A program made the position numbers and the translations under genes. This document shows, piece after piece, positions 29,550-58,697 of a stretch of DNA of 64,000 bases. This stretch comes from Pyrrhoderma lamaoense. Its lineage: Eukaryota > Basidiomycota > Agaricomycetes > Hymenochaetales > Hymenochaetaceae. The stretch is taken from assembly GCA_002794735.1 (NCBI GenBank), contig NBAZ01000026.1, positions 124,001 through 188,000 of the forward strand, read 5' to 3'. The notes beneath the pieces were generated by a model. The model had not been told where the DNA came from, did not search any database, and worked only from the letters and a program-made list of their open reading frames with translations. The stretch's first letter is position 1. The number at the start of each line of letters is the position of its first letter.

Positions 29550-30196
29550 TTCTGTCCCCCCCTTTTATTAATTTTAATTTTATGTCCACTTTATGTCACC
29601 CAGAGAAAAGGTGAATGGAATGGAATGGTATGGAATGCGTTGTGGTGTGGTGAATGAGAGGGGGAAGTAAACAAGAAGGAGAGAAGAAAAAAAGTAAGTA
29701 ATGAGCGTAATGAACGAAATTGATGGCGATCGCGGGTCGTTTTACTTTTTTCTGTCAATCAACACAATATTAATATCACTACACACACGCACGCACGCGA
29801 TCTGATCGGTGGTAATTACCCATTTTGGGTATCAGCTTTTCTTCTTCTCATAACGTTCATCTCCTGTTTTCTCTTTCTCTTTTGCAAAAATGATCATTGA
29901 TATTGTCCTCGCATCCTCTTTACGCCCGCGAAACAGTTTTCTTATCTCTCTCTTCTCCTGAGGGGGGGAGTGTTAGTTGTTATTTTCACGTTGTATGGTC
30001 TTGGATCTTATGATTTTATGATCTTACTTGCTTGCAAGTTGCTACTCACCGATAAATAGTCTTGTCCTGTTTATCAATGACTCTTTCTTTTTCCTTTTTC
30101 TCAAACAAAACAAGAGAAACCGAAATTCAAATTCAGATTTATATTGGACTCTCTTCCTCTTTGACATAAGTCCGTGTTGATTCCCGCGTAAGTGTC

Positions 30197-30200
<4 letters not shown>

Positions 30201-30238
<38 letters not shown>
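30201..30238. repeat. (CT)19 microsatellite
   Basis: Uninterrupted CT dinucleotide run of 38 bases, in a pyrimidine-rich stretch upstream of the glutaredoxin-like gene. Confidence 0.95.
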
Positions 30239-30246
<8 letters not shown>

Positions 30247-30519
30247 CTGTTATTTTTGTTTATATCATTAGGGTTATTCCTAATCTATTCGTTCTTAAGA
30301 TCTTGTTAGGATACGTCATTGATCGTCTCTCTCTTCTTCTTCCTTCCAACCCTCCCTCCCTTTTCCCTCTTCCCTCTCTCCTAAGATGATAACAGACAAC
30401 AAAATCATCGTGATCATGAATAAGTTTCACTTTGTTTTATACGATTATTGATTGTGCAACAGGTGTCTATCGTTTTGGAATTTAGATCACGATTATCAAT
30501 TACCCAGAGATATCTGGTA

Positions 30520-30563
30520 TCTGATATATTATATACTATATATTATATACTATATACTATACG
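30520..30563. repeat. AT-rich short tandem repeat (TATATACTA-like)
   Basis: Successive imperfect copies of a TATATACTA/TATATTA unit over about 44 bases, self-complementary in part. Confidence 0.7.
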
Positions 30564-32297
30564 ACATGCCCCCTCCCTCCTTCTCCTCTTCCCTCTTTTT
30601 TATAAATTCAGTCTCGTTCTTTCCAATCTTTTCTCTGACTCTGTCTTTGACTCGCTGACCCGATCCACCGATTCGATGACCGACCGAGCGATTGATAGAC
30701 AGATTGGTAGACAAAAAACACATATAGAGATAGGAGCTCACACGTATTTTCCATTAAATCTGGTCTGATCTGATTTGATTTGTATCGTGCTTGTTTGAAG
30801 TGTCGGTATTGGCGTTGATGTTGGTGGCGTTGGTGGCGTTGGGTGACGGTGACTGGATCCCTAACCTCTCCCGTATGCCTTCGGGCTTTGGGTTCTTCCA
30901 GCTTCGTTAATTGACTCGTCTAGCTTGCTTGTTTATCGTCTCCCCGTCTCCCGTCGTCTCTGTGTTCTGTGCTATTTAACCTGGATCTCTCTTTCGTGTT
31001 CTGCCCTTCTCTTCTACATTGCTCAAAAACAGATAAAAAATAAAGAAAAAGGTGAAGAAAAAGAAAAAGTGAAGAAGAAAAAACGTTACCAAAAAGGAGC
31101 TTGATATTCTCCGGGAAGGGGGGGGGGTTGTCTCTTAACAGCCACCCTCTCCACCCACCCTCTCCACCAACTCCCTCCCGCGCGCGCGGTGCGGCGCCGC
31201 TTCTTGTTCCCCTCTAATCACCACAGCACACAACACGATATATTATTGAACAATCATAATATTCATATATGATACGGAATTGGGAAATTGGGAAATTATA
31301 CATCCCAACCAACAACCAAATAATTTCCCGCTCCTTCTCTTTCCCCCCCCCCCCCACTTTCACTCCCGTACCCGCTCCTTACCCCCCTCCCCCCCCTGGT
31401 CGTCGTCGTCGTCAGGTTAGTAAAACACGATAACACTATATTAACTTGTGATTGACTTGCTGGAACGTTCAGAACGCCACTTCCATATATACACATTCAA
31501 GTATACTCAAGTAATCAACAGTCAAGCATTCAACATCGTGTGTAACTTGGTATTTCTGTATTACCTGTACTCCGATTTTCTCTAACACCGAACTAGTACC
31601 TTCTACTTATTTCTCTGGTTCGTTCATGGACAAATTCTCATTCAAGTCCCCCCCATTCACTTATTCTGCCCTTCCTTCATTTACTTATTTCTTTCCCCCT
31701 ACTCTGCCCAAATAGCTCCATATCTCCATATCTCCGGGGTAGAGGAGGGAGGGAGAGGGGAGAGGTTGCTTTAAACAGTAAAATATAGTAAACAGGCCCT
31801 CCCCCCACCCCCACCCCACCCCCGCAAAAAAAATTAAAATAAAATAAAATAAAATACAAAGAGAATACAAATAAACATATCCTCTTTCTTCTGTCCTCAT
31901 CGTCAATCTAAAGACAACCCTTGACCCCTTGACGTCGAGCGGGTGCTTGCCGCCGCCGCCGCCCGCCACTGCCATATTCTCCTCCTGATCAAGTACGTGC
32001 GTACTTACGATATCCCTTTCTTACTAGGACACACATACACACATCGCATGCCACATGTACACATACACCGACATACACCGACGTACGCACACACACACAC
32101 AAATATATATATATAAGCATTTTTATTCAATTAACGAACTACCAATTCTCAGCTACCCATCCACCCGTTCATCATTGATTCATTCCCAAGTAAAATCTCC
32201 TACTAACGTACGTACGTACGTGATAGCAAAGCACTGTCCCATAACCTAGTTAATCATAAATCATGATCACAAACAACATCAAAGGGAGAGAAAGAAG

Positions 32298-32580
32298 AGA
32301 GAAGTGAGAAGTGTGAAGTGAGAAGTGAACTGCGTTTAGAAAGGAATGTTGGGATGTTATGGACAAAAACGGATGAATGAGAACGGAAGACGGAAGACGG
32401 AGGACAAAATACGGGAGACGAAAAAGAGAAGAGAGAAGAGAGAAGAGAAGGGAAGATAAAGAAAGTGTTTGGCCAAGGTTCAGTCCAAAGCGCGAAGACA
32501 ATGAACAATGAACAATGAACAATGAACGAATGAACAATAGACAGTAAACGGTGGTCAGTGGACAATGGACAATGAACGGA
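32298..32580. repeat. Cluster of 7-8 base minisatellites
   Basis: Neighbouring short tandem repeats with different units: GAAGTGA-like (about 32298-32330), GGAAGAC-like (about 32383-32404), AGAGAAG-like (about 32420-32452) and ACAATGA-like (about 32499-32545, with diverged copies to 32580). The adjacent unlike units suggest local slippage rather than one expanded element. Confidence 0.75.
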
Positions 32581-35500
32581 TCAAATAAAAATAAGAATAG
32601 GCCAAAGAACTCAAGAGGCCAGTAACGTTGAGCTCTGAGTAAGAGAAAGAAAAAGAACGAATTGACGTACACAAAACTATACATTATTACATACGTACAT
32701 TACTACATATCTCAGTCTGATGAGTTAAACAACAAGTCTAACTTCTATTTAGAATGTAACAAGGTATCTCAAATCAGATTTACCTCGACTCCCCCATTCA
32801 TAGGCCTATCTATGAGTACAGAGAGAGAATGTTGTCGTCATCGTTGGTGGTGGCAGGGCAGTTGGTACTAGAGGAGGAGGAGGAGGAGGAGGTACAACCA
32901 CAACCCGAATTCTTGCCTCCAGAAAAAACAAACAGAAAATTCAGCCAGAGGGAGCAGAGATAGACGGCAGTGACGTAAGAACAAGCCAGTCGTGGAAGTG
33001 TAGAGAACGGGATTGGAAAAACCAGGGACGAAAATAACGACGAACATACAAAAGACTGCAAAGAAAAAAAATGGATCCGAATAATAGTATCAAGAGTTAG
33101 CTCTACGCGCTATACGCTATACGTTTATTGATTTCTCTCTCCTACATCTCTTTTATTTATTTTTGTTACTCCTACTACCCCTCGCTTTTTTCATCATATG
33201 TCTTTTGTAATTTCTTCTCCTACCTTAATTCGCGCACTTACCCACTTTCCAAATGTCCCCTGACATTTATTTTTTGAGATATGAGAGTGATCTACTTACT
33301 CCTGCCCCCTTAGCTAGAGTATAGGTCTACACATGTAGTAATCATGTCACACAACCACGAAGCTGAATGGACAAAGTAAAGTTGTAATCAGACCAAGTTG
33401 ATAATAAAGGAGATTCAGAATCCACTTCGGTTCGGGTATTCAAAGAATATAGAAAATAAAGAGAACACTCGAGGACACGGAAAAGGCCATAAAAGATGAC
33501 ATTTCAATAGAGAAAGGGTGTTCAAGACGGGGAGGTCCGAATGTCAGTTCCAGAGAATTAAGATACATAAAAGAGTGAGCCGAGACATCCGAAAGAACCA
33601 AACAGATATAAGAGGTCCGGTAGACCAAAGAGAGCCGTGAGTACCGAGAAAAGTATAAAGGTAGATAAAAAGCCAGTAAAGGATTGAAGAATAGCTAGAT
33701 TCTAAGATAACGAGCAGAGAGAAGCAGGTAATGGAAGCTACATTTGAAGGGAAGGTATTGTCACCATGAGTAGTAGGCAATAACAGGTACCGAAGGGCCG
33801 ATAAGACTAAGAGTAAAAAGCACAGGAGAACGAGAACGAGAAAAGAAGCGAGAAAGGTAAAATAGAGCTTCCTTCAAGGTTCTATTCTCCCTTAAGAAAA
33901 CAGGAGGACAATGTAGTGGTATGTTGATGATGGATGGGGATGTGTGGGGTTGATTCGGACCCCTGATATCCGAGAGGCGAGGAGACCGAGTCGGAGTCGG
34001 AGGCAGCGGAGGAGAGAGAGGAAGAGGCGAGTGAGATGGGTAGATACGGAGAAGCTTGATGCAAAAGAGGCAGAAAACACGCATCCTACCTGTTTGTGTA
34101 TGTACATGTGTAGCGTGTGAGAAAGAGAGAAGTAGAGAGAAAGATTTGAGAAAAAAAGATAACGTGAGCGAGGTGTCTTGCGTGGCTAAAGAGGCTAGGT
34201 TTGTTGCAGCATGGATGAATGTGAGAGGACGGAGGAGATAGAGAAGTTTGGAAAGAAGACGGGTGACGAGAGAGAGGTAGCTGAGAGTGGGAAGAGAGAT
34301 AATAGATATGCAATATTCAGATACGATAGGTCTAGGCGAGAAAACGGAAAGACGGAAAGACGGGGAGGCGATGTGAATGACGAAGATGATGGACGCGGAG
34401 GTGAACTGATGCGACGGCGACTGTGGTTGCTACTTTACTACTCGCTACTTGTTATTTATCAGTGTGGTGGATGGTGGATGGAGGCCAAAAGGAATATGCG
34501 AGATGAGGTATGAGATACGAGATAGAGTTACGGTGAGAGTGGGAGTACTAGTGAACACGTATACACGTAAGAGGAAGGCCGATCTATCCTTGCACGGAGA
34601 TCTGCAGCAGCTATCCACCGGTTCCGCCGTTGCTCTCACTCCTCCGTCCCTTCTTGGAGTTCTTCCTCTTCGATATCCGTACTTTGTGTCCAAGTCAAAG
34701 CAGAGCTTGCCAGTTTGACATACGTGCAGAACTTACACGTGCAACAAGTGTTAAGAGTATAGACTTTCGACTAAGCGAGCCAAACATTCCTTGACGCCTT
34801 ATTCCTTCTTTCTTCGTCTCTTTAATATCTTTTACTCGTTGTACTCCGAATCACTAGGATAAAAAAATTTATAAGTTCTCCTAATTTCGAATTTCTAGTT
34901 ATAGATCTTGAATGGATCTAATTCCGAAATAATTGTTTTAAGCCCGAGATAAGTGAACCATTCTGCATCTATTTTTTAGGCTTAACGGGTAACCCATAAT
35001 ACCGTAAACAATGTGCATCGTGCATTGAATTTAGCTTGATGTCGTTAGGAGAATATAGTACTGGGGGTAGGAATGATAGAAGAAAAGAAGGAAAGGAGGG
35101 AACGGGAGGCTGCGGGTTGCGAAGGAGTCTTTACTCTTCGTTTCTAAAATCCCTGAATTCTTCTTTTTGGTTCGTGTATCGTCGTATTAAATATTGAGGA
35201 TATGTGAGTGATGCAAAGAGGGCAAGGGACAAATAAGATAAGGGATTTAGGAAAGAACAGGAACCGAACCAAACGGGAAGTCATCCCTGGCTTCCTTTGC
35301 TTATTTACTTCCATCCGAGTTTCTCTCCCTACTTCTTTACCTAACTTTTCCTAGTTACAACTTCGCTTCATCTCAAGTTCTTTCGTTCTATTAAATGCAT
35401 ACTTTACTGCATCAACATGTACTTACATCTCACACCTTACACACTTACACCTAGACCTTTTCCCTCTGTGTATCTCTCTCTTCTTATCCGGACTTCTTTG

Positions 35501-40697: not shown

Positions 40698-42676
40698 ATG
40701 TCTCACTCAGTAACAAAAAGCTCAGTAACAAATAGCCCATTCGAGCCCAGGCAAGTTTTATCTCGAAAGAGGTGTACTGTTTCCGTAAGTAGTGGTCCTT
40801 ATTCAAGGGGGTAGCTTCTGTAGTCCACTTCTTTTCTTCTATCAGCTACCAGCTCCGAAGACTGATGATACGCTTCATAGATATGCTCTGTCAGTTCCGG
40901 CGAAGAATTCACTCAAAGCAAATGGAAATCCCTAGCAGGCCAGAACGTTGCGGTGAAGAGCGGTAAGTATAAGACAGACAAAAGGGGACAGAAACAAACG
41001 GAACCTTACGAGAGGGAGCTCCGTATATTACGTGCACTACCCAAAGCCCCTGGTTTAGTAAGTATGAATAAAACCCTTATATTTATATAGATTTACTTAT
41101 AATATGAAAGATAAAGTTCCATGGTGAAATTGAAGATCCTAATGGATTCCACGCTGTAATGAATTTGGCTGGTTACGGAAGCATGGATTATAAGAAAAAT
41201 ATAGAAGCGCTCAATGATAAGGGATCAAATCCCGAAATAGCACTCCGGTATAAGTATCAGTCTTTACTTTGGTATGTTATATTTTGCATTCCCTTACATG
41301 GTCATATTGAAGCGATTGTGATTTTCTGCAGGTGGACACTGTCAGGGCTGAAAAACCTCCACGAAAAAAGTATAGTACATCAACATCTCACGTAAGTACT
41401 ATGTGATACACTTGAGTTATGGTTTTCGCTCCAACATTTTTTCATATAAAGTCCAGAACATATTCTACTCGATAGTCGACGAGATTTTAAATTCAGTATC
41501 GGGGGCTTTGGAAGGTAATTGGACTTATAACGTGGCTAATAGCTCATTTTGACATGTATCGATCCCTCACAGTGCAGTTCAACCCCAAAGAGATGCGATA
41601 ACACAACTTATAACCCCCATCAAGTATGCGGCTCCAGAGCAACTGAATAATCAATTTGGGGATCCCAAATCAGACGTCTGGACTTTAGCGTGAGTATCCT
41701 ATTACATACAGGCTGCCTCATGACAAGCATAAGTATATTATGGATTGCTTATCTATTTGTAAATATTTGGAATCACATAGGGTCACTGTTTTAGTACTCT
41801 CACTGGGAGGGCATCACCCTTTTAGTGCATACAATAGTCAATCATTATATGCCGAAATCATAAACGATGGACCCAATGGCCTTAGCAAGGTGTTACAATC
41901 GATCCCTATATTTTCATTTCTAGGCGGAGACTGTAAGTAAAAAAAAGTGAATTTCAGATAGGAAACTGCTTAACTCGGCATGCCTAACAACAGTTCGCGA
42001 CTTGATGCGTGGAATGTTACAGACGGATCCGGGCGCTCGTATCACAGCGAGTGACGCGTTTAAACATCCTGTACGTCAATATCTAATATAAAGATAATGG
42101 ATACAAAGAAAGTAAAGCTCTAGCTGACTTATACTCATCTCTCTTGAAGTTCGTGAAGAAGAACAGTAAATCAGGTCCACCCACGAGTAGTGAGAATAAT
42201 GTGAAATCTAGCGGACCACAAAGCCCCAAAATACCACAGGCCAAACCAATAGAAGCACCAAAGAGCCACTCAACTGTAACAAAACAACCAGATTCTGCTA
42301 GAAGCATTCAGAGTCCTATCAGCGGTCCACCAAAGATCAAGCCTCGTAAGCTCAACTTTCGCTCATCACTGATTCAAAAGCCTCACTGATAGTATGCCTG
42401 TTGATCAGAAACTGATATAACAAAATCCCAGAATATCACTAGGCCGAGTACACCAGTCACCACAAAGCCGACTAGTGCAGCTATAAAGAGTCCAGGTAGT
42501 AGTAAGACTAGCGACGTAAAAGGTGAAAGTTAAACTCTTACATCGAGAAAAAGTAAAACTAATTTTTTACTTTCAACTCAGCTGCAGCATCAGGTCAAGT
42601 CAGCAACAAAAGTGACATTGTCCTCCCCGTTTTAGGAAAAGGGAAAAAAGGCAAAAAGGGAAAACCACAGAGTTAA
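40698..42676 (+). CDS. Kinase-like protein 1, predicted pseudokinase
   Basis: First of five tandem kinase-like genes. It keeps the beta-3 lysine (NVAVKS at about 40946-40963), a possible helix-C Glu (YERELRILRAL), an APE-like motif (IKYAAPEQL), SDVWTLA and a helical C-lobe ending DAFKHP. The catalytic residues are replaced: the HRD motif reads HQHLT (Asp to His), the following Asn becomes His (PEHILL), and DFG reads GFG. No glycine-rich loop can be read from the first exon (MSHSVTKSS...), unlike its four neighbours. Introns split the catalytic loop and follow GFG-Ser in phase 2, as in the other copies. The tail is Ser/Pro/Lys-rich and ends GKKGKKGKPQS. Start and first exon are uncertain; a decaying gene is the alternative, though the tail exons remain open. 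Confidence 0.72.
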
Positions 42677-43765
42677 GATAAGAAAGTTAGATTCATATTG
42701 GATTTTCTCAACATTACTCAAAAATCAATTATTGGAATGTCATATATAAGTGCTTCGAAAGTGTAACTTTCATCATAGATATTTACAATAAATCTCCATG
42801 ATCTACTATATCCCTCGTTTAGACTCTTCATCAAGAAGACTAAAATTGGACGTTGTACATTGAACTTGAACTTCAGCTAACACTATTTTAGCCTTTCTCG
42901 GAGTAGACCGTGCACTTTCAAATTCAAATTTTGATGAGACCCATTTAATCACATACGCGAAAATATTACCTAAGTTGAGGAATTATACCGTGATAGTAAT
43001 ACAGGGCGAAATCTATCAAGATATTACGAAAAATAGCGCTTAGAAATGTATATGATCAAACAAAGTAATAACTACTCTCAGACGGGTCCAGAAGATTTTC
43101 CATCATGGATTGAGCTTTGATCTCCAAAGTTTTTGACGTGATGGCTTACAGCGGTGGTCGCAAAGTAGTACAATTATACCTTTACGTTAAGTCCAGCTCG
43201 TTACTATAACCCCCTGTCCCGCATTAGGAATATTGCAAGTGATACGTGATTTTTTTTTGACTTGATACCTCGCTTTGTTTGCTTTGCACAAGTCAGAGGC
43301 TAGAATGTTCTATCTAGCGTGTGTGCTTTGGGTTGGCAAGTAACTTTCATACGAGGACTTTTATTTGGAACTTCAACTCCACTGATATACATACCCCATT
43401 TTTACTCTGTTGAGATATCAAGGTATACAGCTATCATAAGTATATGCACATAACCAGGCGTTTGAGACACGACATTCTCCGAGATCAGGGATACACAAAA
43501 CTCTCTATATTCCAACTTGTAGTTATTCCCTTGCATGCTCGATAATTATCTTGTTGTTCAATAATACTCTACAAAGCTAAACTATCAGCTCCGACAAAAT
43601 GTTTCAAAGAACAAGAAATTTGCTAGTGATGCAACTTTGCTTACTCAATATCGTACACTGGTAGTAGAATGTCAATGGTGTTTCAATACGAGATGTATTT
43701 AATATACTTATAAAGGCAAATTTCGTGCCGCCTGCTGCTGTTACCAGTCCTGGTACGCTAGCCTT
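42677..43765. other. Spacer between kinase-like genes 1 and 2
   Basis: About 1.1 kb of AT-rich sequence with no supportable ORF; presumed 3' UTR and promoter. Confidence 0.5.
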
Positions 43766-45555
43766 ATGTCAGTCCTAGCTTCAAAAGGGTTCAGATGTAT
43801 TGGTCCAATAGGTGAAGGCTCGTCTGCGTCAGTATTTGTGAGTCAAAATCTCTCTTTCATTTTCTGAGTTGATTAATTGACGTGAATAAAGGAATGCGAG
43901 GCTTCTGCAACTTCGAGAGACAGCTTTCAGTGGCACCGCTTGAGAGGAAGACCCCCGGCGCGGGTTGCGATTAAAATGATACCTCGTGACTTGACTGTTG
44001 ACTGTGTTGCTGAACGGCGAGCTCTAAGTATTCTACCAGAGGATAAAGGAGTTGTATGTCATGAGCATAAGTTTCACATCCCTTCAACTACTGATCATAT
44101 GCCCAAGATGAGATACTATGGAGTGATCGAAGATGAGGAGTTTTGTTATATGGTCATGGAACTTGGAAGCGTTGGAGATTTGTATAAAATCACCAATATG
44201 CTTGGGGCAGGTAAACTATCTGATAAAGTATCAAGATTTAGAGCTATTTTACAGTAAGGTCACTGTATATGATGTCTGCCGTAGGACTAATAACAACTTG
44301 TTAGCAACTTGACGGGTGGGCTGAAGAAACTGCATGACAGAAGGCTTCAGCACAAGGACATCAAGTGAGTGTTATAGTGTCCAATACATCATTGCAAGCC
44401 GATGATCTATACTTACATACTTACATCCTCCTCTCAATGTAGGACAAAAAATATTATTTGTAGATCCTTTACGCCTTTCGATTGTTTTATTGCAGACTTC
44501 GGAACGTAAGGGCATTTAAGCTTATAAAACATCTTTTTCTACTAAATTCCTTTGACAAGAATGCATCAGAAAGGCGTTGATAGTACTCCCACAACCATTG
44601 AAACTACCCCAGACTATACAGCACCAGAACAGATCAGAGGGAAGCTTGAGGAGGAGAAATCAGATGTATGGTCCTTAGCGTAAGTCTGATTTTTGCTCGA
44701 GATAGCTGAGATATCGGACATTTTCTTCTAGTGTAGCTGTTGTAAGTGCCTCACGAGGGAAAGAGCCGTTCCCGCAGAATACAAAAAAGTCCATCATCTT
44801 CGCCAGGATATTAAGCGGATATCTTCATCAGAAGCTTCAAGACTCATTCCTATTCGAGATACCTGCAGGTACGAGTAAACATGTTTTATTAACGTGACAA
44901 TTTTCAGGGGAAAGAACTCTTATTCTAACTCTCGATAGCGAAGGACTTGTTGTTAGGGATGTTAGAACCTGATCCTAACTTACGATTCTCTGCTAAAGAG
45001 GCATTTGAGCATCCTGTGAGTCTATTTTAGCTCGCAAGCATAAAGATAAAGATCTCTGAGACACATAAGTTCACTCAAGGTGGAGAATTTGTACGCCCTT
45101 TAAGGAGGGTATCTGGTTCTGCTCCAGGTAAAATATCTTTCTCCGTCTCGAGTATGGCACCGCGCAAGGATCAACCTACGAGTATAACTCCTATAAAGAA
45201 AGTGAATCAAGCGATACCAGCAGCGACAAGCTCAACACAGGCTCAAAATATGAGAACGTCCTCAAATATTCTAACGCATCCGAGCGCTCGTGTGATAAAA
45301 GATAACGACAGTGGTACACCCCAAAGTATGTTTATCTCTTTCTCTTTCCACATGATAGATTTTATAGAGCTTGTTCTATGTTTTAGACGCAAGACTTCCA
45401 GTAGTGACACTCAAGGGGTGGATAAACATAAAAAGGATACAAAAGTAAAGATAATTAAACCGACCGGCGATGGAACGAAAGCAAAAGAAACCTCTAAACA
45501 GGGAAAGAGGAAGAGGTCTAAATCCAGGGATCCTACTGGGAAACCCACTACTTGA
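43766..45555 (+). CDS. Kinase-like protein 2 (Ser/Thr kinase fold, catalytic residues intact)
   Basis: Second gene of the array. Exon 1 (from 43766) holds the glycine loop IGEGSSASVF followed by a GTGAGT donor. The next exon gives RVAIKMI and a long N-lobe through MRYYGVIEDEEFCYMVMELG. The catalytic loop is QHKDIKTKN (HRD with Lys, Asp kept), followed by DFGT, then YTAPEQIRG and SDVWSLA. The C-lobe has LLLGMLEPDPNLRFSAKEAF. Phase-2 introns split the Lys of DIK and follow DFG. The C-terminal tail is Lys/Ser/Thr-rich (KGKRKRSKSRDP near the end). The exon join near 45327-45390 is uncertain: the unspliced frame is open, whereas the 61-base candidate intron would change it. Substrate and family beyond the protein-kinase fold are unknown. 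Confidence 0.8.
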
Positions 45556-46462
45556 ATTGAGATGTTATTATGTGATAAAAAGTAGGTTGTATGTGTGAAG
45601 AAATTTTTATATAGATAGATATTGTGCTTTATACAAAAAAATGGATAATAAATATATATATAATCTCTACATCAGAGGCCTAATCGGGTAGATTCCCATT
45701 CTCCCATTACTACCTTTCAGGGCTACAAAAGAATATGATGGAATGGAGATCAGAAACTCGGGTTATCACAGTTGTACATGTACATTTACATAACATCTGC
45801 AAAAACAAGTTGACACAGATGGACTTTGCTTTATCAATCGCATTCGTCTTCGATTTTCGTCATATGCGATTTCTACATTTTTTCTAGTACTTTTATCCTG
45901 CCTTCCCAGAGCAAATGTAAGATATTAATCTAACTAGTTCATAGCAAACTTCCTTCGGGATCTTCCACAACGAATTAATACAATGTTATCAAATGATAAC
46001 TCATATGAGATTGGTGCATATCACATTTGTAGGTGGCGTTCTAGTTTCAAGCAAACTCAGTTTCGATCGTTTGCAGAAAGGTAAATCAAGAGATGATTTT
46101 CCTCTTCTTTTCGGTGACTAGATTTTAGAGAAAGTGCGGTAGTATATCTTTATCATTCCTCTGTACTAGTCTCCCGAGATAATCCAAAGATTGGATGATC
46201 ACATATAGGCAATGTCCTCGGAGAGTAGCTTATGACTCTATCTTTTAAGTAATATTAAAATTATATAGAAACGAATACTAGCGAGACCTAATCTGTACGT
46301 ACGTGAGACGTTTGCATAGTCAACAGTGCATGAGAATACAGCCGGAGAAATCGTCTGTGCTTCGTCGACTGTATATAAGCATACATAGTGAGATATCTGA
46401 TATTCTTTAGAGTAGCTTAGCCTCCCCTGCGTCTAAAACCCAATATCAAAAAAAGTTTGATC
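45556..46462. other. Spacer between kinase-like genes 2 and 3
   Basis: About 900 bases of AT-rich sequence without a gene. Confidence 0.5.
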
Positions 46463-47890
46463 ATGTCAGAGCTTAAAATTAGTGACCTTCAACTAATTAA
46501 AATCATGGGTGAGGGTAGCACCGGATCTGTCAAAGTATGTTGCATAACTATCTACCTCTATGAGTACGTTTACATTGGATTTGGATATAGGCATTAAGGA
46601 TACCTGATGGATTAAACAAATCTCATCCATGGAGAGCTATAGCAGGTAAAGTTATTGCAGTGAAGTCAATACAACGGAAAATGGAGTTTCAGTATGAAAA
46701 AGAAAAGAGGAACTTAGAAGCACTAGCACCTATTAAAGTGTTCAGCAATAGTAAGTCGCACTCAAGGTAACACATATAGTTGTACCGCTTATACCTTTAT
46801 TTCATCTAAGATGAAATTTTATGGCACGACATGTAACCAAGATTTCTATTTTCTTCTTCTAGAGTTTGGTAAGTGTGGAAGTTTATATGATAATATGTCC
46901 GAACTGCTAGAAGCGCCACAAAAGACCATAATAAAGAATATCCGTACGATGATGTGGTATGTGTATCTATGTATGTAATTATGCTTGCCCGGGTAATAAC
47001 AAGCATTGTTCAGGCATGTAACACTCGGTTTGATGAACATTCATAAACACTCTCTAGTACACTGCGATCTAAAGTTAGTCCTTCCTAACGATTTTCGATC
47101 ATGCTCCCAATATCCGTACTGATTAGGCCAGGAAATATTGTTCTTCGCTCTAAAATGACATATGAATGTTTTATTGCTGATTTTGGATCGTAAGTTTGAG
47201 TGTAAACTGGATGAAACAAATTCTCTCTAAAACTTTGTAAATATTATTTGTAGGATGTATCGGATAGGCAGAGATGAAGTACCAAATTATATTGCATCAC
47301 GTAAATATGCAGCACCAGAACAAATTTCTGGACGTTACGGTCTTACTAAATCAGATATTTGGGCAACAGGGTATGTTGAGTGATTATTCATGTATTACTC
47401 CTACTCACTGTAACACATACAGGCTCACATTCGTGGTCGTTTCTATAGGGAAAGAACTCTTCTCCGAAGATGTGAAGAAGGATGATATATATAAGAGCAT
47501 ATCAGATGGCTCACTTATTAAAAGGATACAGTCTATGTCGTTTTTATTTCGAGAACCCGTCGGTGAGTCGAATAGGCGAGTACTTATTCCACTATGAATT
47601 TAACTCTGTTGATAGTCGCTGACTTTTACTCGGGATGTTGGAGATGGATCCAGCTATACGCTTTACAGCAGAAGAAGCACACAATCATCCTGTATGTGAG
47701 AATTATTTATCAATGTATCGATATATACAAACATATTCTTTCAAAGTTCGTACAGAATAAACCATTCATACGTTCAAAGAGAAAGAAACCTATGGCACGA
47801 TCACTTGAAGCATCGAAAATGTCTAAGCAAAAAGCTAGTGTGGGCACAGATCCCAGGGAAATAACACTGATAAGACCAGATCACAGCTAG
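46463..47890 (+). CDS. Kinase-like protein 3 (catalytic residues intact, one apparent frameshift)
   Basis: Third gene of the array. The first exon has MGEGSTGSVK, the next KVIAVKS. The catalytic loop reads LVHCDLKPGN (HRD with Cys, Asp kept), then IADFGS, then RKYAAPEQISG and SDIWATG. The usual phase-2 introns are present. The C-lobe segment should read ADFLLGMLEMDPAIRF, which needs one added base in the T4 run at 47624-47627; as written the frame changes there. After a short intron the tail starts FVQNKPFIRSKRKK and the frame ends at 47890. Further Lys/Ser-rich, coding-like sequence continues in other frames to about 48218, so the real C-terminus may be longer, with another indel or intron. 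The helix-C and VAVK exons look normal. Confidence 0.75.
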
Positions 47891-48218
47891 ATCAGCCAAA
47901 ACACCCGACTACAAATTCCGTTTTCAAGACCAAGAAACCTGAAACAAAAAAATCTTCTGGGAATCAACGCATTTCAAAGGACTCATCACGAGCGGTAAGC
48001 AGAAAAAGGCTAGTGGAGGAAACACTTCCAGTACACTTGGTGGTTCATTTGAGGTAAGCACAAGCGCTAGTTCATCAAGTAAAGCAAAGATGTCCCAAAA
48101 GGCAGCATCGAAAGTACCGAGCAAGGACCCTGCTTTGGACAAAATAGGTAAATATACTGACCCGCATAAGATATCAAAGTCGACATCCTCGGAACAGCTC
48201 AGAGAACTAAAATTGTAG

Positions 48219-48723
48219 CATCACGGGATCAAAAGAAAGAGAGTCCCAAAGCTCTTAGAAAGCTTGCTTGAGCAGTTGAGCTCTACAAGATAAGGCAAAA
48301 ACAAGAAAAATGGGTATCCGGCTAATTGATTGTTGCTTACTCAATTTGTATATCACATGCACAAGACTCGGCAAATTTCTTTTGATACAGCTAGAGTCTT
48401 CTCTTCCAGGAGATATTGATATCGTTACTCTATTCTCCTGTCGATTCTCGGATTTCATTCAATCTCCATCTCTACTACCAATCAAGGTATACTATGATAG
48501 TAGCTATAAGTACAACACGTGTCATACATAGAAATACGATATCTGGAAGTCATCCTGTGTTACAAAATCCACATCCTGTCGCAAACTTATACTCATTCAT
48601 GCGTGCAATTAACTTTGCAATTCCTTGTACCTTGAACGTACTCTTTAGGTATATAAAATGCAGCAAACTTCTTCGCGATATAATGAAAGGGAAAAGCTCT
48701 AGTCGGACTCAATAAACGATACG
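48219..48723. other. Spacer between kinase-like genes 3 and 4
   Basis: About 500 bases, AT-rich; no gene seen. Confidence 0.45.
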
Positions 48724-50480
48724 ATGCCAGGGAGGGACATCTCTGAGTTCAAATACATAAAAAAAATGGGACAAGGGGCTTTTGGTTCAGTTTACGTATG
48801 TCTAGTCATTTGCTTCTCAATAGATTAGTCATTTTGACATACCAGATCTCTAAGATCTATAAAGTACCCGACAACCTGGGGATCCTTTCTTATTGGAAAA
48901 AACTGAAGGGAAAGGAAGTTGCTGTAAAGACAATACACGGGAGACCAGACATATTCAAGAGTGAGAGAAATATCTTAGAGTGTATTCCTAAGAACTCTAG
49001 AGGATTAGTAAGTAAACTTCAGGTCATTCTATGAGTGTCAGAATACTCACAGACCATCTAAGATGAGATATTATGGCTCAGCTGGTGATGAGATGAATGG
49101 TCATCTAATAATGGAGCTTGGTCCGTATGGGTGTCTCTTACAAAACAAGGCCCGACTAAACCAAGGGGATCTATCAAGCAAGACGAATAGATACAGGTCG
49201 TTGTTGTCGTAAGTCAGCATTATCATCTACAGTGACAGTTGATAAGAACATGACCCTGAAGGGATTGTTTATCTGGACTTGCAACTTTTCATAACGCGGG
49301 CCTTGTACACCAAGACATCACGTGAGTACCACAATAATCCCCGATATTGGCGAGTTCTCAATGTGATCAACTGCAGCCCGAAAAATATCGTGATACGTTC
49401 TATTAATCCTTGGAGCTGTTTTATTGTAGACTTTGGAGCGTATGTATCTCTTATCTGTGTAAGTCTCTTATCTCATGACATTATTTTAGAACATACAAAC
49501 GCACTGATGCAGCTCCGGTGGATCTTAAAACGACATGTCGGTATGTAGCTCCCGAGCAACTCAAACGTGAGTACGGAAATCCTTTGTCAGATATCTGGTC
49601 TCTTGTGTAAGCTGGGAGCTCTATAATATAACACTTGCGTGGCATCTCATCGTTTATACGTTATATAGAGTAAGCTTTCTGCTGTGCTCCTTGGACGACA
49701 ATGACAACCCGTTTAAGGACATTACACATGAAAGTTGTATACTAAAAATGATTGAAAACGGGAAGCTACTCAAAGAACTTATAACTGGCTCCTTTCTGCT
49801 TGATTCGAAATCCGGTAACTTCCTCAATCTATTATGAGATGAAGGTCAAGTATCTAATAGCATTCCATATAGGCGAGGATCTTATACTTGGAATGTTAGA
49901 ACCGGATACTAAGCTACGGTTTTCGGCGGAAGAAGCATACACTCATCCAGTGAGTATCATCTCCGCTCTTTATGCTCAAATGAGTACAAAGGTTTGTATT
50001 GCTCACGGTTCATCATAAGTTTATACAAGGGAGACCATTCACAACGAACCTACGTAAAAGGGCACAACTCAAAAGATCCCAAACAGAACCAACAGTAATC
50101 CAAAGAACTAGAACAACTTCGTTGAATGTATCAAATGTAGCTCCTCTAGTAAACTTCCAACCAGCCCAATCCAAAGATCTTAATACAAAAGTACCGACAT
50201 CTCCCAATTCCAAGAAAACACTAGAAACCCAACTGAGAAAGCCTGCATTAAGAAACGTAGAATCGCTTCAAAAAAAGTCCATAGTCAATTTGGATAAGAT
50301 GTCAACCAATAGTTCACGTAATCGTAAGTACTGAAATCTTAGGATGGAACAGGATTGAGATGGTTTATATAACAAATTTCCTCAGATGTAGAATCTTTGC
50401 AAAATTCTGAGCGGCGCCGATCGGTTAGTAGCCTAAGACGAAATTCGAAGCCGACGGTACGTGAAAATAGGATAGCATAA
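48724..50480 (+). CDS. Kinase-like protein 4 (catalytic residues intact)
   Basis: Fourth gene. The start MPGRDISEFKYIKKMGQGAF leads into GSVY with a GTATGT donor, the clearest glycine loop of the array. Then come KEVAVKTI, a helix-C region with SERNILECIP, LVHQDITPKNIVIRS (HRD with Gln, Asp kept), VDFGA, RYVAPEQLKREYG and SDIWSL. The C-lobe ends LILGMLEPDTKLRFSAEEAY. Phase-2 introns lie in the catalytic loop and after DFG. The tail begins FIQGRPFTTNLRKRAQLKRS and stays basic and Ser-rich to the TAA at 50478-50480, after one more intron near 50330-50386. The exon boundaries between the glycine loop and VPDNLG are approximate. Confidence 0.78.
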
Positions 50481-51139
50481 GCGAGTTTTATACTATTAAT
50501 CATTTATTACAAATAGTTACTACCAAAAGAGAGGTAGCAAAAAAAAGGTAGATGGAATAATTCTGAGAATCATTACTTTTGTTATGTATAGGGATACTTA
50601 GGGACATACAATTGATAATAAATGACACCAGTACTCAAAGAATCTGAAATGCAGCGTGTACAGTAATCATCCAAAAACGTATACATATATATAATAAACG
50701 AACTCTCAGCCAAATCTACTAAAAAAGGGACATATATCATACTGTATTGATACTATGAGCTCATCCGGATTAAGGCATTCGTATTATAAGGCTGTTCTAG
50801 CAAGATAGTTGAAAATCCTAGATTTTAGACTCGAAATATCTGAAACACCGCTATTCGTCTTTGCAAGTGGTCTCTTTTCTGAAGCATGCATAAATTACTC
50901 TCTGTCGTAGGCCGCTTATCGAAACTCAACTTCTCAGTATTATTTGCTTATATACAAGCATTATCTAATCTCCCAAGACGCACAGATACTTCATAAGGTG
51001 CCCTAGCATTATAGTCTGGAGAGTTATAATTGCTATAACATAGAGCTTCTTCAAGCGAAGGATCAAACCCGTTATAATTAGAAGACGCTAGTTTCTCGTA
51101 TGGAGCTATAATATAGCTCTTGGATGGATATATTATATC
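50481..51139. other. Intergenic region
   Basis: About 660 bases of AT-rich sequence with no supportable gene. Confidence 0.45.
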
Positions 51140-51433
51140 CTATACACCTTCAACCTGAGCCCTGTCAGCAGTATCTGCAGACACCCCTTCTGGCTCTATG
51201 TGCAAAGTAGATTTAGGAAACTGGGGGGAGTGAATTGCATATCGAAGAGATGGAAGGATACGAACTACTATGTAGCGTTCGCCATCCTTAGCAGACGTGA
51301 TCTGATATTCATTACCTGTCTTTATGCGTATATTCAGATGATGTAAGCTCTTCTCTGAGAGATAAAGGATGTTAGGATGTATGCGAAACTTGTAGAACCT
51401 CTGCGGTGATGAGGACGATTCTCCTATAAGCAT
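51140..51433 (-). CDS. Hypothetical protein, possibly the 3' part of a larger broken gene
   Basis: A 97-codon ORF with protein-like composition (RFYKFRIHPNILYLSEKSLH, YRI-free but with repeated beta-like segments such as GERYIVVRILPSLRYAIHSP). I recognise no family. Just upstream on the minus strand (about 51690-51434) other frames hold protein-like stretches (LEDEEPKFQILTRILKEAQP, then KKSLVESQLHLGTTVLSLSN). The ORF may therefore be the end of a longer gene with introns or frameshifts. It is the only minus-strand ORF within the kinase array and lies between genes 4 and 5. Confidence 0.35.
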   Translation of the reverse strand: MLIGESSSSPQRFYKFRIHPNILYLSEKSLHHLNIRIKTGNEYQITSAKDGERYIVVRILPSLRYAIHSPQFPKSTLHIEPEGVSADTADRAQVEGV

Positions 51434-52471
51434 CCTATCATCGATGCAGTGTCTTTTCTTAATGTTTCTGGAGTGGTTATTACGAGTGACGACTCCAGCA
51501 GATTACTGAGGCTCAATACTGTTGTACCCAAATGAAGTTGGCTCTCAACCAATGATTTTTTGTCCCTTACGCCATATTCTGAGGGAAGATTTCATACGGC
51601 TGAGCTTCCTTCAGTATCCTGGTAAGTATCTGAAATTTGGGTTCCTCATCCTCGAGTAATAGCATTTTGATATATTCCAGCAACTACCAGTGAAGAAATA
51701 GGTGCTACTTACTACATGCTTGGCAACAAAAGAAATACCTTCTTTGACAACTATATTTAAAAGTGAGCCCTTAAACAATGATTACGATTCTATCGATAAC
51801 ATTGACGCTGTTTGAGAAGGACTGTTACCCTCTATCATCTAGAACTGTTAAACCCTGACACATAGATGAATCAATTGTAAAACCGGGTTCTTGCTGTTGA
51901 CTTCCTAACCAAGCAATTTGCCGCATTATAAGTACGCCATAGTAAGATTGCAATTTTACCTTCGTATTACGTACATGTTATTTGTAATAAGTTTTGCACT
52001 TCCTATTTTCATGTCAAGGAAATTGAACTCAAGCCTGATATATTGAATCTATTTGTTTGTGATTTATGCTTTTGATAGACTCTACGTGTGGTAATTCCTT
52101 TTTTTCTTATCATTTGAAGATGTGGAGCTCATTTTTAGAACTACCGACACTATGAGCCCATTAAATTTTACCAATATTATAAGGTAAAAACTATCTTTTA
52201 TTAAGCTAAACTACCAAAAGAAGCAAAGTGACAATTATATACGCATGTCTAGAGATACAAATATGACTGATTTATCGCTAATATATATATGGGTCTATTG
52301 TTTGCGTATTTCATTGCAATATTTCAAGTTCCTTCGTTATACTACTTTTTGAATCTGTTTGGCTTTGCATCTTAGAATGTGTTATATATTGCGAGGTCCA
52401 AATCCGAGATCCACCATGCAAGTAAGTCTACAGTAGCAGTGAACCGCTGATCGTTAGACGTACCTCCCATC
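51434..52471. other. Spacer upstream of kinase-like gene 5
   Basis: About 1 kb of AT-rich sequence; apart from possible upstream fragments of the 51140-51433 ORF, no gene seen. Confidence 0.45.
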
Positions 52472-54785
52472 ATGGCAGCTCAAGGATTAGCTGGGCTTGT
52501 CCCTTACGGTGAACGCCTTGGTAAAGGGTCATATGGAGAAGTTTTTGTAGGTGACAAAGCCTAGCTACTATTATCTATCTAACACACTTACAGAAGTGCT
52601 ATGTTCCGCAAGATATCAACTGGGACTCCCCATGGTATGAATACAGAGGTCAAAAGTTTGCAGTTAAGAAAATGAAAAAATCAAAACGATATATAGAACT
52701 TCAAAATTCAGAACTAAAAGCACGGAGTGTACTTCCGATATGCAATGGAATAGTGAGTCTTATTCCTAGTACAACTCGAGCAGCTTTCTCATCTCTTTCA
52801 GCTGAGACATTATGGAGAAGCTGAAGATAAGGAATACATCTATATAGTTATGGAGTATCTCAGACACGGAGATCTGCATACTTTGGGTAGACAAGTGCGT
52901 GTTAACCCGGACCCTTACGGAGTTATACGGCATATAATGTAGTGCGTGGTGCATTCCTGTTAAATTGTGAAGCTAGTTAACTTAGTCACAGCACCTTATT
53001 GGAAGGACTTGTGCGTTTGCACGCTGAAGGCTTAGTTCACCAAGACATTAAGTAAGCCATAATAATTCAAGTTTGAGCTGTCTATGATAAACTTATACTA
53101 CCTATGACCAGACCGCAAAATATTCTAGTAAGGGATCCTAACACTTATAGATGTGCTATCTCAGATTTTGGATCGTAAGATATGACAAAAACTCCATTTT
53201 ATGCGTCTTGGTTTGATTAACGCCTATATATAGGTTATATGTGATGAATAGTGATCCAGCTCAAACTTGGCTCAAAACCACTTATCATTATGCGGCTCCC
53301 GAGCAGGCGAAATCAGCATTGTTAAATTTACCAGACTATGGAGACCCTAAGTCGGATGTTTGGTCGTTGGCGTAAGTCGAGATTCTACTTATTAAATATA
53401 GGTTATCTTGACCGTTATCTCCTTCAGGATGTCAATTGTTATTATAACACGTGGTGCTGAATACTTTGATGTTACAGAAAAGAAAGAAGTTATATTTAAT
53501 GGAATTGTTGATGGTTCGGCTGTTGATGATCTTCGGCGAGAATCAATTATCTTTAAGGACGTGATAGGTATTATCTTTTGCACAAACTTCAAATCATAGT
53601 GTTCTCATGGCTTTCGTTATTTCAGTCGCTGATTTATTTCTCGGGATGCTTGCACAAGACCCGAATGATCGATTTTCGGCAGCTGAAGCTTTCAGCCATC
53701 CCGTAAGTAATATCCTCTCTCGGGCGGAGGAGATTAACTTACGGGTATGCTCTTGATATAGTTTATTCAATATCAGGAATTTACAACTCCGCTAAATAGG
53801 TTTAAACCCTTTAAACCACTAAAGAGAAACTCAAAAGGCAAAGGAGCTATACCTCCCCCAAAAAAGATAAAAGGTATTCCAGATCCAGTCATAGCTAGTT
53901 CCTCAGACTCAAAAATACACGGAGCAATGGGATTAAGAGGGACAGTAGGACAAACAGGAGGAAAAATTGCTCCTATTCTAGGTACTATCTCTTATTTGTT
54001 CTTTTAAACCGTGTCTTTATCCATCACGTCTCTTGTCTGATTGTTACAATTTTATTTCAAACTAGGCCCAAGAATAACAAATATGCAGACATCTACAAAC
54101 AGGGAGCAGGGACATGAAGGAGTTTCGCGAAGACCTATGTCTGCACGTCCATCAGGTGGTGGTGAACGAGCTCTACCGCTGGCTAGTACAAATAGCACAG
54201 CATTTTATGGTAATCTCCATCTAAATGATAGGTCAGCGAACAAAAGAGTTTCAAAGGCTCCAAATCCAGACAGGCCGGCCTCCGCAAGACCAGCTTCAGC
54301 ACGACATATAACGAGAGCGGTAGGATCGGATAAACAAGTAAAACCACCATTGGCGACACCATTGAAAGGACTCAAACACCTGTCTATCCATGCTTCAGAT
54401 GACACTACAGGTTGGTTTTATCTTATCATGTACGTAAAAGCGGACAAACATTTAACTCGCTTTATGAAGCACAACATGAAAGAAGACGAAGGAGAAGAGA
54501 AGACAAAGGCCCACCATTGTCGCATACGAAACAATTTGAAAAGATCAACGAAGGGGACGGTAGGCACAATACAGGAAAATCTAGAGGTAAGCTGGATATT
54601 CTATCATACCTACATTGCTCCCTGCTAATCCGCTATCAGCCGCGGCTACACCGAGTCGAAGTGACAGCATAACACAAAACCAGGTAAGGGAACGAGTAAA
54701 TAGGACAACAGAGGCCAAAACATATATTGTTCATGGGCGAAAAATAAAGGTCAAGGAAGATGGGACAAAAGTAGTTGTAAGATGA
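52472..54785 (+). CDS. Kinase-like protein 5 (catalytic residues intact, long SARP-repeat tail)
   Basis: Fifth and largest gene. The first exon encodes MAAQGLAGLVPYGERLGKGS then YGEVF (glycine loop), next KFAVKKMKK, a hinge YIVMEYLRHGDL, the catalytic loop LVHQDIKPQNILVRD, SDFGS, YHYAAPEQAKS and SDVWSLA. The C-lobe has ADLFLGMLAQDPNDRFSAAE and ends HP. Phase-2 introns match those of the other four genes. The tail of well over 200 residues is basic and Pro/Ser/Ala/Arg-rich, with repeated SARP-type units (RRPMSARPSG, DRPASARPASARH), and ends in a compact YIVHGRKIKVKEDGTKVVVR segment that looks folded. Several small tail introns are approximate. Confidence 0.8.
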
Positions 54786-55234: not shown

Positions 55235-58200
55235 CTAACCAATAATTTTCCCATATCCACCAGTAGACAAAGACGGAGGCAACGATTCAATATCACTCCC
55301 ACACTTAAGCGTCCTATCGTTCGTTAATTCAAGTTCGATCTCACTACCCATCTCAAATATTGACCAGCTGATATAACAATTCGACATCCACACCTTACCA
55401 TTCACCTTAACACTCTAGACGATAGACAACTATAATTAGATCAGATCAGCATGAAGTATGCTTCTTACTTTGACATATATATTCTTTCCTCTTCCTTCTG
55501 TCGAATAATCCCCTTTAAATCCTCTAGTAATGATTGAGGTCGTGCCCAGAAGTGGGTTGCGAATTCTCACCGATTCGAAGAACGGTGATGAAATAAGAAA
55601 CTCTTTCGTCGCGGGAAGAGGATACAAACCAAGTAAATTGAAAACAACATAACTTCCCATAGCACCAGAGTCTAGGAGAAAGTTGGATGAGAATCTACGA
55701 CGTTTGATTATTGGGAAGACATGCCATCATTTCCAGGTAGGCCATTCACGCTCGTATTATAAGAATCTGCAATTACTTCACGTGATCGTTCCGCACTCAG
55801 ACCAGGTCTGTCAGCATAATGATACATATATGGAATCTGTTGGGAAGGCTCGTTTGTAGAATCAAAGTATCCCTAATCGTAAGTCCAATGTAAGGTATAT
55901 CTATGCAAGATCACTAAAGAAATAAAAAAACTCGCACGTTGTCAAAAATGAAGTCCAAACGGCGGATAAACGACTCTCTTCCACCTTGAAGTTCCATTAA
56001 TTTTGCCGTGTCATGAGGAACATACTGTGAATACTGATGCAACGTTTTAAATGCCTCAATATTCAGCTGAAGGGAAAGAAACATACTACAATAGGACCAC
56101 CCTCGTAAAAGCCATCTTTCTTCCCACCATCGAGGAAACACGTGCTATGTCGAGGATCATGTACGGAACAATGCCTAGGGTCTGTATATCCGAAGGAATC
56201 GTTTTTTGCGTATCGAGGCTGCGTATAAACGCGATTATCGAAACAATATTCTTCAAAGACAAAGATACCCATACCTGCATAAAGCCATGGATACCCTCTA
56301 TCACTTGATCATTAGCATCTTGAATGGTCGTATTTGGATTCCAAACCCATTCAAATCCTCGAGATCGGTTACTATACTTCTGCCAATCTTTTATATTACC
56401 CAACTCCTTAGCCACTTGAGAGACCGTAAAATCATCGAAGGAATACTAGTATCATTAGCGAAAACAGTCTAAATTGACAAAAGGAAGATTATTACTTCAA
56501 GGGTACGAGAAACTTGTCTCGTGTTTAGTCCGCCTTTACTAAATTCGTCGCTAGGAATGTATCCTATGTACTTTGAGAAGAGATGAAAGGTTTCTTTAGG
56601 ATAGAGTAGCGTACCAAACTGCTTCCAAACATCTGCTTGTCTTCCCATAAGATCCCATCTCTCAGGCTGCTCTTCAGCGTCCTTTACAAGAGCAGCGTAC
56701 AACGCCTCCGAAGAGACATTGAGATTTTCAAAGAACTTCTTGTATCTGAAATGGTTGACTTATAAGGTTTCGCTTGCAAACAAGTTATTGTACGCACTTA
56801 ACATAAAACTCCGCAAGTATAGGGTCTCCACCTTAGTAATATACAAAAATGAGAAAAAATGAGAAATTAGCGAGACTTTTTGGAGAGATAACAAATACGT
56901 ACTAGAACCTCCTTGAATAAATTGCTGCAATGTAGCCCCTCGACACTCCGGAAGCCATCCTTCATTTCGTTGAATATCAATTAAGGATCGTACTACTTTT
57001 GAATAAGTCACAGGATCATGTAGTGACATCAACGGAAAGAGTGTTCGATATGTATCCCACTAAGTCAAAACAAGACGCTCAGTACATAACAACTAATTCA
57101 TCAGTATACACACATTGCAGTATAGAGAATCGTAGTAAGGCTCATCAGACTTCCATTTAGGATTTTCTCCACTATCTGCGAACTAAATTAGATCTTGTTT
57201 ACCATGCTGACGAGATAAATATGTGGACAAACAATCAGCTGGAACAATGTGTGAGCGATACAGCTACGGATCTGGTTAGAAATAGCGTTTCTAGCGTTTC
57301 AGATTTCATTATCGTATAGCTTACTGAGGAGTAGAAAAGAGTGACATCTGCTTTACGACTCGTATCCGCACTGATATCAAACCGCGAAAGTAGCTCGTTC
57401 CATTCTGAACGTGCTGCTTCATGTACTTGAGAGAAGTTAAAATCAGGAATCTCGCGTTCTGCGTTCATGCATGCTTGACTTGATGAGATAAGGGACACCC
57501 CAACACGTGCAAGGACCACTAGACGTTTTTCGTGTGCTTCCTTTGCAACGTGAGGCGCTCGAACAAAGATATTTTGAGAATCGCCTTTTTCGTCTTCTTT
57601 GGCAAAATCTCGTAAGGTAAGCAAAGCGCCGACTTCTCCAGACCGTGGAAGTGCCTCAAATGTTGTTGTATTCATGCTTATTTCACGCCCATGATATACC
57701 CCGTATTGAACGGGAGTAAATGTGGATGGTGTCTCCTCTTCGTAACGGAAGTCGGTACAAACAAATGCATCGTAACTTGATCCGATAACGATAAATATCG
57801 ACAATGTCAAAAAATAGCAGGAAAATTCGATCATACTTGCCAGTCCCAAAACTTGCAGCAAATCTCGCCCCGCCTTTGACACGCCCTGTTTCGGGGTGAC
57901 ATTAATCTCTAATATGTGTCCGGAGCGCATTCCGTCATTCGTCAGGTCCAGGACCATACGTGGCCTCCAGTCTATATCGTCAGATAACAAAATTCCATTC
58001 TCAATCGCTTCCTCCTTCGTTGGAAATGTGTATCTGTGAAGAGCCGTCCGACGTGTTGCTGTAAGCTCAACTCGAACACCAGTCGATAGATTCGTTGCAA
58101 AGTATCCCGGGGAACCGGCATCATCAGCAACCCCTCCACCAAGGGGAGCGAAGTCTGCAATGGCATATTTGAACCGACGTGGAACTTTACGTTGACTAAG

Positions 58201-58697
58201 TATGACCGGACACGTCGAAAAATTAGAGCAGTGGGTAAGTGGGAAGAGCTTGAAATTCGAGAGAGGGATGTTTCCCCCTGTGCCATCCTCATGAAGTTGG
58301 CTGAACCCTGTTACCTTGTACCGTGGATCAGCATCATATCCAGCGTGCTGAAAATCGGAATAGAGTACTGCGTCATGAGCTCAACTAATTCCTAGTATGA
58401 GTAAACATAGAAACACACATTTCCTGGAGAATCAGTATCCATCCCTGCTTTAACCATGCCATGAGGTAGAGTCGCTCCTGGAAAAACATGACCACCGTTT
58501 GTTGTCCCGATAAAGACGTTGACCAGATTTGTTACGTCTCCTAATACAGCAGGTGGGATTACCTTTCTGGCTCCTGAAGAGCTAGTAAAACTGAGTGAAT
58601 AAACAGAGGCATGAAGGTAAAGAGTTGTTCCTATTGCAACTACAGCTAACGTGGCCAGTAGCGATCTACTCCTCTGAGACAAGAGGAACGATGACAT
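55235..58697 (-). CDS. GH92 alpha-1,2-mannosidase (one apparent frameshift)
   Basis: Family 92 glycoside hydrolase that would trim mannose from N-glycans or mannoproteins with calcium help (family knowledge). The start at 58697 gives a short cytosolic part and a signal-anchor or signal peptide (LLATLAVVAIGTTLYLHASV). Then VNVFIGTTNGGHVFPGATLP, HGMVKAGMDTDSPGN, intron 58348-58418, and HAGYDADPRYKVTGFSQLHE. Next are VELTATRRTALHRYTFP and VLDLTNDGMRSG, then SLHDPVTYSKVVRSL, GWLPECRGATLQQFIQGGS, QYSQYVPHDTAKLMEL, FNEPSQQIPYMYHYA-type and LPGNDDSGAMGSYVVF. The last exon (55415-55235) ends GGYGKIIG. One base is missing near 57866-57877 (KGGARFAASFG region). A GC-AG intron splits GNDD/SGAMG near 55725. 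About ten introns; not all boundaries are certain. Confidence 0.87.

Follow-up and report, generated by a model that had tools for sequence, protein, structure and literature searches.

In a 64,000-nucleotide stretch of the Pyrrhoderma lamaoense genome (contig NBAZ01000026.1, here C26, positions 124001-188000; this whole stretch is the window), five kinase-like genes, g1 to g5, lie on the + strand at a spacing of 0.8-1.9 kb. We give a probability of about 0.6 to the reading that, of the clusters found, this array is the largest in a small, old and apparently lineage-restricted family of putatively intracellular kinases in an Agaricomycete-like fungus, a family that undergoes slow birth and death. 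The genes descend from a common ancestor and share their introns as well as their architecture, a kinase domain with a basic tail; further copies are dispersed in the genome, one member is a pseudokinase and one is a probable pseudogene. The intact members are putative Ser/Thr kinases.

Long open frames were listed on both strands of the whole window, and kinase models were assembled by hand from frame-consistent GT-AG introns, all of the following models being homology-guided predictions (window coordinates):

40698-42676, + strand: g1, pseudokinase gene, 425 aa in 11 exons (40698-40784, 40881-41057, 41111-41271, 41332-41391, 41452-41514, 41573-41689, 41781-41932, 41994-42070, 42150-42345, 42409-42501, 42582-42676); hand splice model, PF00069 at 106.4 bits
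41372-41514, + strand: degenerate catalytic loop HQHLTPEHI and GGFG of g1, with phase-2 introns at 41392-41451 and from 41515
42150-42676, + strand: basic tail of g1, ~125 aa, net charge ~+17, ending in GKKGKKGKPQS
43766-~45555, + strand: g2, kinase gene with HKDIKTKNI and ADFG; splice model, PF00069 at 124.5 bits; kinase exons 43766-43837, 43892-44053, 44108-44253, 44305-44364, 44443-44505, 44560-44679, 44732-44868, 44939-45015
from 45070, + strand: tail of g2, its reading uncertain beyond 45325
46463-~47890, + strand: g3, probable pseudogene with HCDLKPGNI and ADFG; exon-wise similarity across the kinase domain
48724-~50530, + strand: g4, kinase gene with HQDITPKNI and VDFG; splice model, PF00069 at 94.5 bits; kinase exons 48724-48795, 48846-49007, 49063-49208, 49262-49321, 49377-49439, 49490-49606, 49669-49814, 49873-49949
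50020-50323, 50386-50456 and beyond, + strand: tail of g4, its last intron uncertain
52472-54785, + strand: g5, kinase gene with HQDIKPQNI and SDFG, 559 aa in 12 exons (52472-52546, 52594-52752, 52802-52941, 52992-53051, 53112-53174, 53234-53371, 53428-53567, 53626-53702, 53762-53981, 54066-54410, 54470-54586, 54640-54785); splice model, PF00069 at 134.4 bits
53762-54785, + strand: basic tail of g5, ~271 aa, net charge ~+32, with RPASARPASAR repeats and an RRRRRR run; unmatched by Pfam at E 0.001

The five same-strand kinase-fold genes proposed in a first-pass annotation of this DNA were recovered by Pfam wherever a protein was submitted (g1, g2, g4 and g5; g3 was not submitted): all four matched Pkinase PF00069 at 94.5-134.4 bits against a cut-off of 31.7, and at E 0.001 kinase models alone were matched. 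In these four of the five genes the spliced kinase domain forms an open frame over ~280 codons. The glycine loop, β3 Lys, αC Glu, the Asp of HxD, the Asn and the DFG motif appear by eye in g2, g4 and g5 and, read exon by exon, in g3. The loops listed above bear out the HKD, HCD, HQD and HQH variants noted before; none of the five carries Arg before the catalytic Asp (Q, K, C, Q and Q for g1-g5), and the residue after D-[IL] reads T, K, K, T and K in the same order.

Descent from one ancestor had been proposed on the basis of two phase-2 introns, at the catalytic loop and past DFG, and here the sharing proved stronger: eight kinase-domain introns, with phases 0, 0, 2, 2, 2, 2, 1 and 0, occur at the same motifs in g1, g2, g4 and g5 (8/8 each). 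The first two follow the glycine-loop segment and the αC/β4 junction, and the third lies in helix E. Introns 4 and 5 fall within the K/T codon after D-[IL] and one residue past DFG (GFG in g1), while the last three follow S-D-[VI]-W-S/T-L, precede the segment leading to G-M-L, and follow H-P. The tails of g1, g4 and g5 contain additional phase-1 introns. Composition likewise confirmed a basic tail behind the kinase domain in all four tails counted (g1, g2, g4, g5), with K+R at 14-21%, D+E at 4-8%, S+T at 16-26% and a net charge of +7 to +32, the g2 values being taken from its 80 certain residues alone.

The genome (30.65 Mb, 72 contigs) was then searched at the protein level with g5, g2, g4, g1 and three copies found elsewhere as queries, accepting E up to 1. 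Copy numbers are lower bounds because the best candidates alone were scored. The loci obtained were:

C3:746512-747933: C3 copy, HQDIK and ADFG, 8/8 introns in the same phases
C37, ~60.3-61.6 kb: C37a, HQDIA and SDFG, 7/7 modelled introns in the same phases
C37, ~63.4-64.4 kb: C37b, HQDIK and ADFG, one GC donor, 6/6 modelled introns in the same phases
C16, ~369 kb and ~195 kb: two distant loci with HRD and DYG, a donor after D-L that reads as the same, and weak exon-by-exon scores

The tandem expansion originally described holds for the five-gene array, but the family is not solely tandem, with copies also on C3 and C37. The HRD Arg is replaced by Q in C3, C37a and C37b (0/3 with Arg), and the replacement (Q, K or C) extends to all eight close members. 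The two loci on C16, with HRD and DYG, seem to form a more remote branch and were not counted among them. Basic Ser/Pro/Arg-rich stretches also occur behind the C3 and C16:369k kinase domains (by eye, unspliced). Lys-rich stretches were seen by eye ahead of both C37 kinase domains (stretch L043, ~1200-1400 and 4100-4240), and a basic region may thus flank the kinase domain on either side. The 10 kb flanks of the window held no convincing further copy, one being without a match and the other having two at E 2.6 and 5.4; the remainder of C26 was covered by the own-genome searches alone.

Family membership was further assessed with profiles that each excluded the member being scored. Bit scores were 168.1 for g1, 241.0 for g2, 232.0 for g4, 225.3 for g5, 211.0 for C3, 221.1 for C37a, 149.6 for C37b and 210.9 for g3 (as exon pieces). 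The best of 291 listed database proteins, 69 of them mannosidase matches, was P0023, a protein with two kinase domains that reached 122.8-141.5 bits on the family profiles. In a maximum-likelihood tree of 39 domains, the eight members formed one clade (SH-aLRT 96.4, bootstrap 99) against 20 external domains, hand-picked from 19 proteins, and 11 further kinases from this genome; the 11 were kept from 20 own-genome loci once 4 duplicates and 5 matches that were short or split had been removed, and short-exon kinases, the HSD-type arrays described below and the C16 loci were left out. Intron structure, held-out scores and the kinase-domain tree called for by the first-pass annotation thus agree on a single ancestor of the five genes. 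Within the clade, C37b branches first and g3 groups with C37a (92.3/94), the remaining inner nodes having supports of 24-88/57-87. The grouping of g3 with C37a suggests that the array predates the C37 copies.

In g1, HQH stands in place of HRD, GGFG in place of DFG and His in place of the catalytic-loop Asn; the glycine loop is missing, and the β3 Lys and one αC Glu are retained. By established kinase biochemistry, loss of such catalytic residues makes a pseudokinase, and judged on its sequence g1 is one, beyond a mere variant of the loop. Its HQH motif had been read correctly, but besides the Asp of HxD, the Asn, the DFG Asp and the glycine loop are gone as well.

The status of g3 is different. 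It keeps exon-wise similarity together with the glycine loop, IAVK, HCDLKPGN, ADFG, APEQ and SDIW. With the strong donor at 46751, exon 2 joins exon 3 out of frame, whereas a weak donor, GTGTTC at 46738, would hold the frame. In exon 8, a stop interrupts the frame carrying LLLGMLEMDP, and the in-frame acceptors found fall inside the exon and would lose this segment. The tail frame ends at ~47890, and basic Ser/Pro-rich sequence goes on in other frames. With its frame broken at exon 2/3 and in exon 8 and with an early stop in the tail, g3 did not stand up as a readable kinase gene; a pseudogene is the probable explanation, with an assembly error as the alternative. Decayed copies or membership in separate conserved families would have spoken against the original proposal; one copy in five looks decayed, but the copies group together as a single family.

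Kinase-domain identity among g1, g2, g4 and g5 is 30-38% in pairwise comparison, in line with the strong divergence claimed before. Fast divergence is here indistinguishable from old, because third codon positions are saturated (identity of 29-37% between six members across 249 codons). With synonymous sites saturated and branch lengths running to the bound, the suggested dN/dS between copies is unusable. We compared a neutral terminal branch with a one-ratio codon model on one fixed topology: neutrality fitted worse for g4 (2ΔlnL 22.7), C3 (21.4), C37a (13.7) and g2 (13.1), and somewhat worse for g5 (5.5).

Relatives outside the genome were sought with g5 alone (best 120 of 282 matches) and with a five-member alignment (best 120 of 945). 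Each search scored ~8,000 candidates picked by shared exact 5-letter words, and distant relatives may consequently have been missed. The listed matches are generic kinases (identity 23-34%) of plant, animal, protist, bacterial and metagenomic origin, with a few from early fungi or yeasts (Rhizoclosmatium, Physocladia, Blastocladiella, Lachancea); no named Agaricomycete appears among the best 120 of 282 or of 945, in which most rows are nameless. Two patterns run against viral contigs gave 73 matches and no confirmed relative. As a gauge of how well the host is covered, the adjoining GH92 gene had 69 matches, the best at 46% and the best named by E-value, from Agaricomycetes, at ~40%. With identities this low, no annotated relative of the host in the database is close, which limits the claim of lineage restriction. 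The lineage-specific expansion proposed initially is consistent with these generic matches, within the reach of ~8,000 candidates per search. Among the papers listed from PMC full text, none was recognised as describing the family, which does not prove its absence. Against PDB, the family profile matched best to apicomplexan calcium-dependent kinases (cgd3_920, 117.9 bits), followed by RAD53 (108.7), PLK4 (100) and ULK2 (98.4). The likeness to CAMK-, PLK4- and ULK-type enzymes is one of general kinase fold only, the window family being non-RD and having no further Pfam domain.

Kinases of the non-RD class in general skip the contact between Arg and the phosphorylated activation loop. As the HRD Arg is replaced in all eight close members, these enzymes should not depend on that phosphate-to-Arg contact, and they would probably be switched by protein level, by a partner or by the tail. 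As for the basic tail, its most likely function is to tether the enzyme to an acidic partner (nucleic acid, membrane or microtubule) or to dock substrates. If g1 is active in any role, it would most likely serve its siblings as scaffold or regulator. Copies would arise, diverge and die slowly, and with such slow birth and death the cluster would represent an ordinary tandem family and not a dedicated recognition system. Roles in self/non-self recognition, signalling or stress had been suggested, but nothing found favours any of them, Pfam showing kinase models alone in 4/4 proteins.

Several points count against the reading of the array as the main cluster of a small, old family. The loci on C3, C37 and C16 were first reached through weak exon matches (E 8.5e-4 to 0.08), and membership of these loci rests on the reading of each locus; C37b, with its GC donor, beats the best external protein narrowly (149.6 vs 141.5 bits). 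The gene models were picked to keep frames aligned, which biases them toward shared introns, and several acceptors read AAG. Owing to saturation at synonymous sites, dN/dS, omega and ages are not measurable, and the equal parameter numbers of the branch models mean that there is no formal p-value. Neutrality of the terminal branch is about as good a fit in the case of g1 (2ΔlnL 0.9), whose function could therefore be lost; against this, neutral drift over the fitted distance should, by a rough estimate, have left ~16 stops in 280 codons, and none is seen. Taken together, g1 would either serve an altered function under constraint or be insufficiently resolved. Finally, the non-RD logic and the job of the tail are drawn from general kinase knowledge.

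Against this background, the array could be a local duplication within a broadly conserved basidiomycete kinase family with a housekeeping role that the searches missed. The ~8,000 word-picked candidates, with the top 120 of 282 and the top 120 of 945 considered, and the distance of the GH92 gene from its best match (46%) and best named match (40%) leave room for such a family, and the C16 loci carry the normal HRD that a conserved ancestor would have. However, the listed matches are generic kinases at 23-34% identity without a named Agaricomycete (most being nameless), and the profile search with five members likewise gave none among the best 120 of 945, for which reason we regard this explanation as unlikely. 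Alternatively, the cluster could be decaying, with most copies on the way to pseudogenes and little present function. The frame breaks of g3, the loss of catalytic residues in g1, compatible with neutral drift, and the uncertain tail ends of g2 and g4 would fit, but four of the five kinase domains are open over ~280 codons at 30-38% identity with splice sites kept, and neutrality is the poorer fit for branches of the intact copies, making general decay improbable.

A fast-evolving conflict family, in which kinases and a pseudokinase decoy are under diversifying selection for self/non-self recognition or defence and tandem duplication serves as a reservoir, would account for the array, the strong divergence, the variety of loops, the pseudokinase and the decaying copy, and other large kinase arrays exist in the same genome. 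This idea is quite improbable, because Pfam at E 0.001 returns kinase models alone in 4/4 proteins, the saturated divergence looks old rather than recent, and the g2, g4, C3 and C37a branches fit purifying constraint better than neutrality. An undescribed family of competent non-RD kinases cooperating with g1 as a dedicated pseudokinase from one cluster, with polymorphic members in allorecognition or antiparasite signalling, is a very long shot. We thus retain the reading of an old, apparently lineage-restricted family with slow birth and death of copies. If the lineage restriction is true, FunK1, the HSD-type arrays and this family would make three kinase expansions within a single small mushroom-type genome, and the family would provide a compact natural series, from active-looking members through an altered loop to dead and decaying ones, in which the loss of kinase catalysis could be studied. 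Apart from that, the array reflects ordinary gene-family birth and death, a biologically modest finding.

FunK1 (PF17667, Pkinase_fungal) is described in PMC3203195 as expanded in mushrooms and dimorphic fungi, with varied active sites and with Ser where typical kinases carry the catalytic-loop Lys. FunK1 and the window family are both fungal kinases with lineage-specific expansion and varied active sites; unlike FunK1, the window proteins align over most of PF00069 and have K or T (A in C37a) at the position, as mapped here, of the FunK1 Ser. Membership in FunK1 was rejected, with 0/4 window proteins matching PF17667 at E 0.001. In the same genome, at least 117 stretches (not genes) match PF17667 in clusters, none of those listed being on C26; they lie on C42, C2, C31, C29, C13, C37, C6, C55 and others, many of them densely clustered. 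This FunK1 expansion is very large for a 30.65 Mb genome.

A separate set of kinase arrays has HSDxK or HGDxK loops:

C11:778-798k, C39:58-99k and C56:4-28k, also C33, C10 and C31: HSD/HGD-type kinase genes, several in tandem

At 12/12 of the sites with these loops, GT comes after the next full codon (phase 0), exon joins not being modelled, whereas the donor of the window family lies within the K codon; because loops and donor position differ, identity with these arrays was rejected. According to PMC2838846, Laccaria bicolor shows an expansion of tyrosine kinase-like (TKL) kinases, and this expansion and the HSD-type arrays are likewise cases of expanded or tandem kinases in mushroom-type fungi. 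In g1, g2, g4 and g5, PF00069 outscores PF07714 (4/4), so that this rough group test gave no TKL or tyrosine-kinase-like assignment. Plant tandem kinase-pseudokinases (PMC6170490) and rhoptry kinases and pseudokinases (PMC3682881) are also families with pseudokinase members; the former are described as acting in resistance and the latter as secreted parasite proteins, and the window family shares no architecture with either and gives no sign of a comparable role.

Among the HSD-type arrays, WD40-like sequence appears by eye behind one C11 kinase copy. C39:79894/94358 and C56:8800/22864 have near-identical scores, similar spacing and the same catalytic-loop DNA, a likeness reflecting either a duplicated contig or a second haplotype. 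On C10, kinase stretches at 246510-247373 (+) and 250416-251279 (-) have identical scores on opposite strands 3 kb apart, which suggests an inverted duplication.

Within the array itself, the largest gap is 1.9 kb (window 50700-52400) and includes a 120-codon open frame at 51143-51502 (-) with no Pfam match at E 0.001. The neighbouring gene named above is as follows:

56089-58380 of the window, - strand: gene for a GH92 alpha-mannosidase, spread over several open frames, with an overlap between two of these at 57975-58310

Upstream of the array, window positions 26300-34500 form a long stretch that by eye looks of low complexity, with overlapping open frames on both strands.

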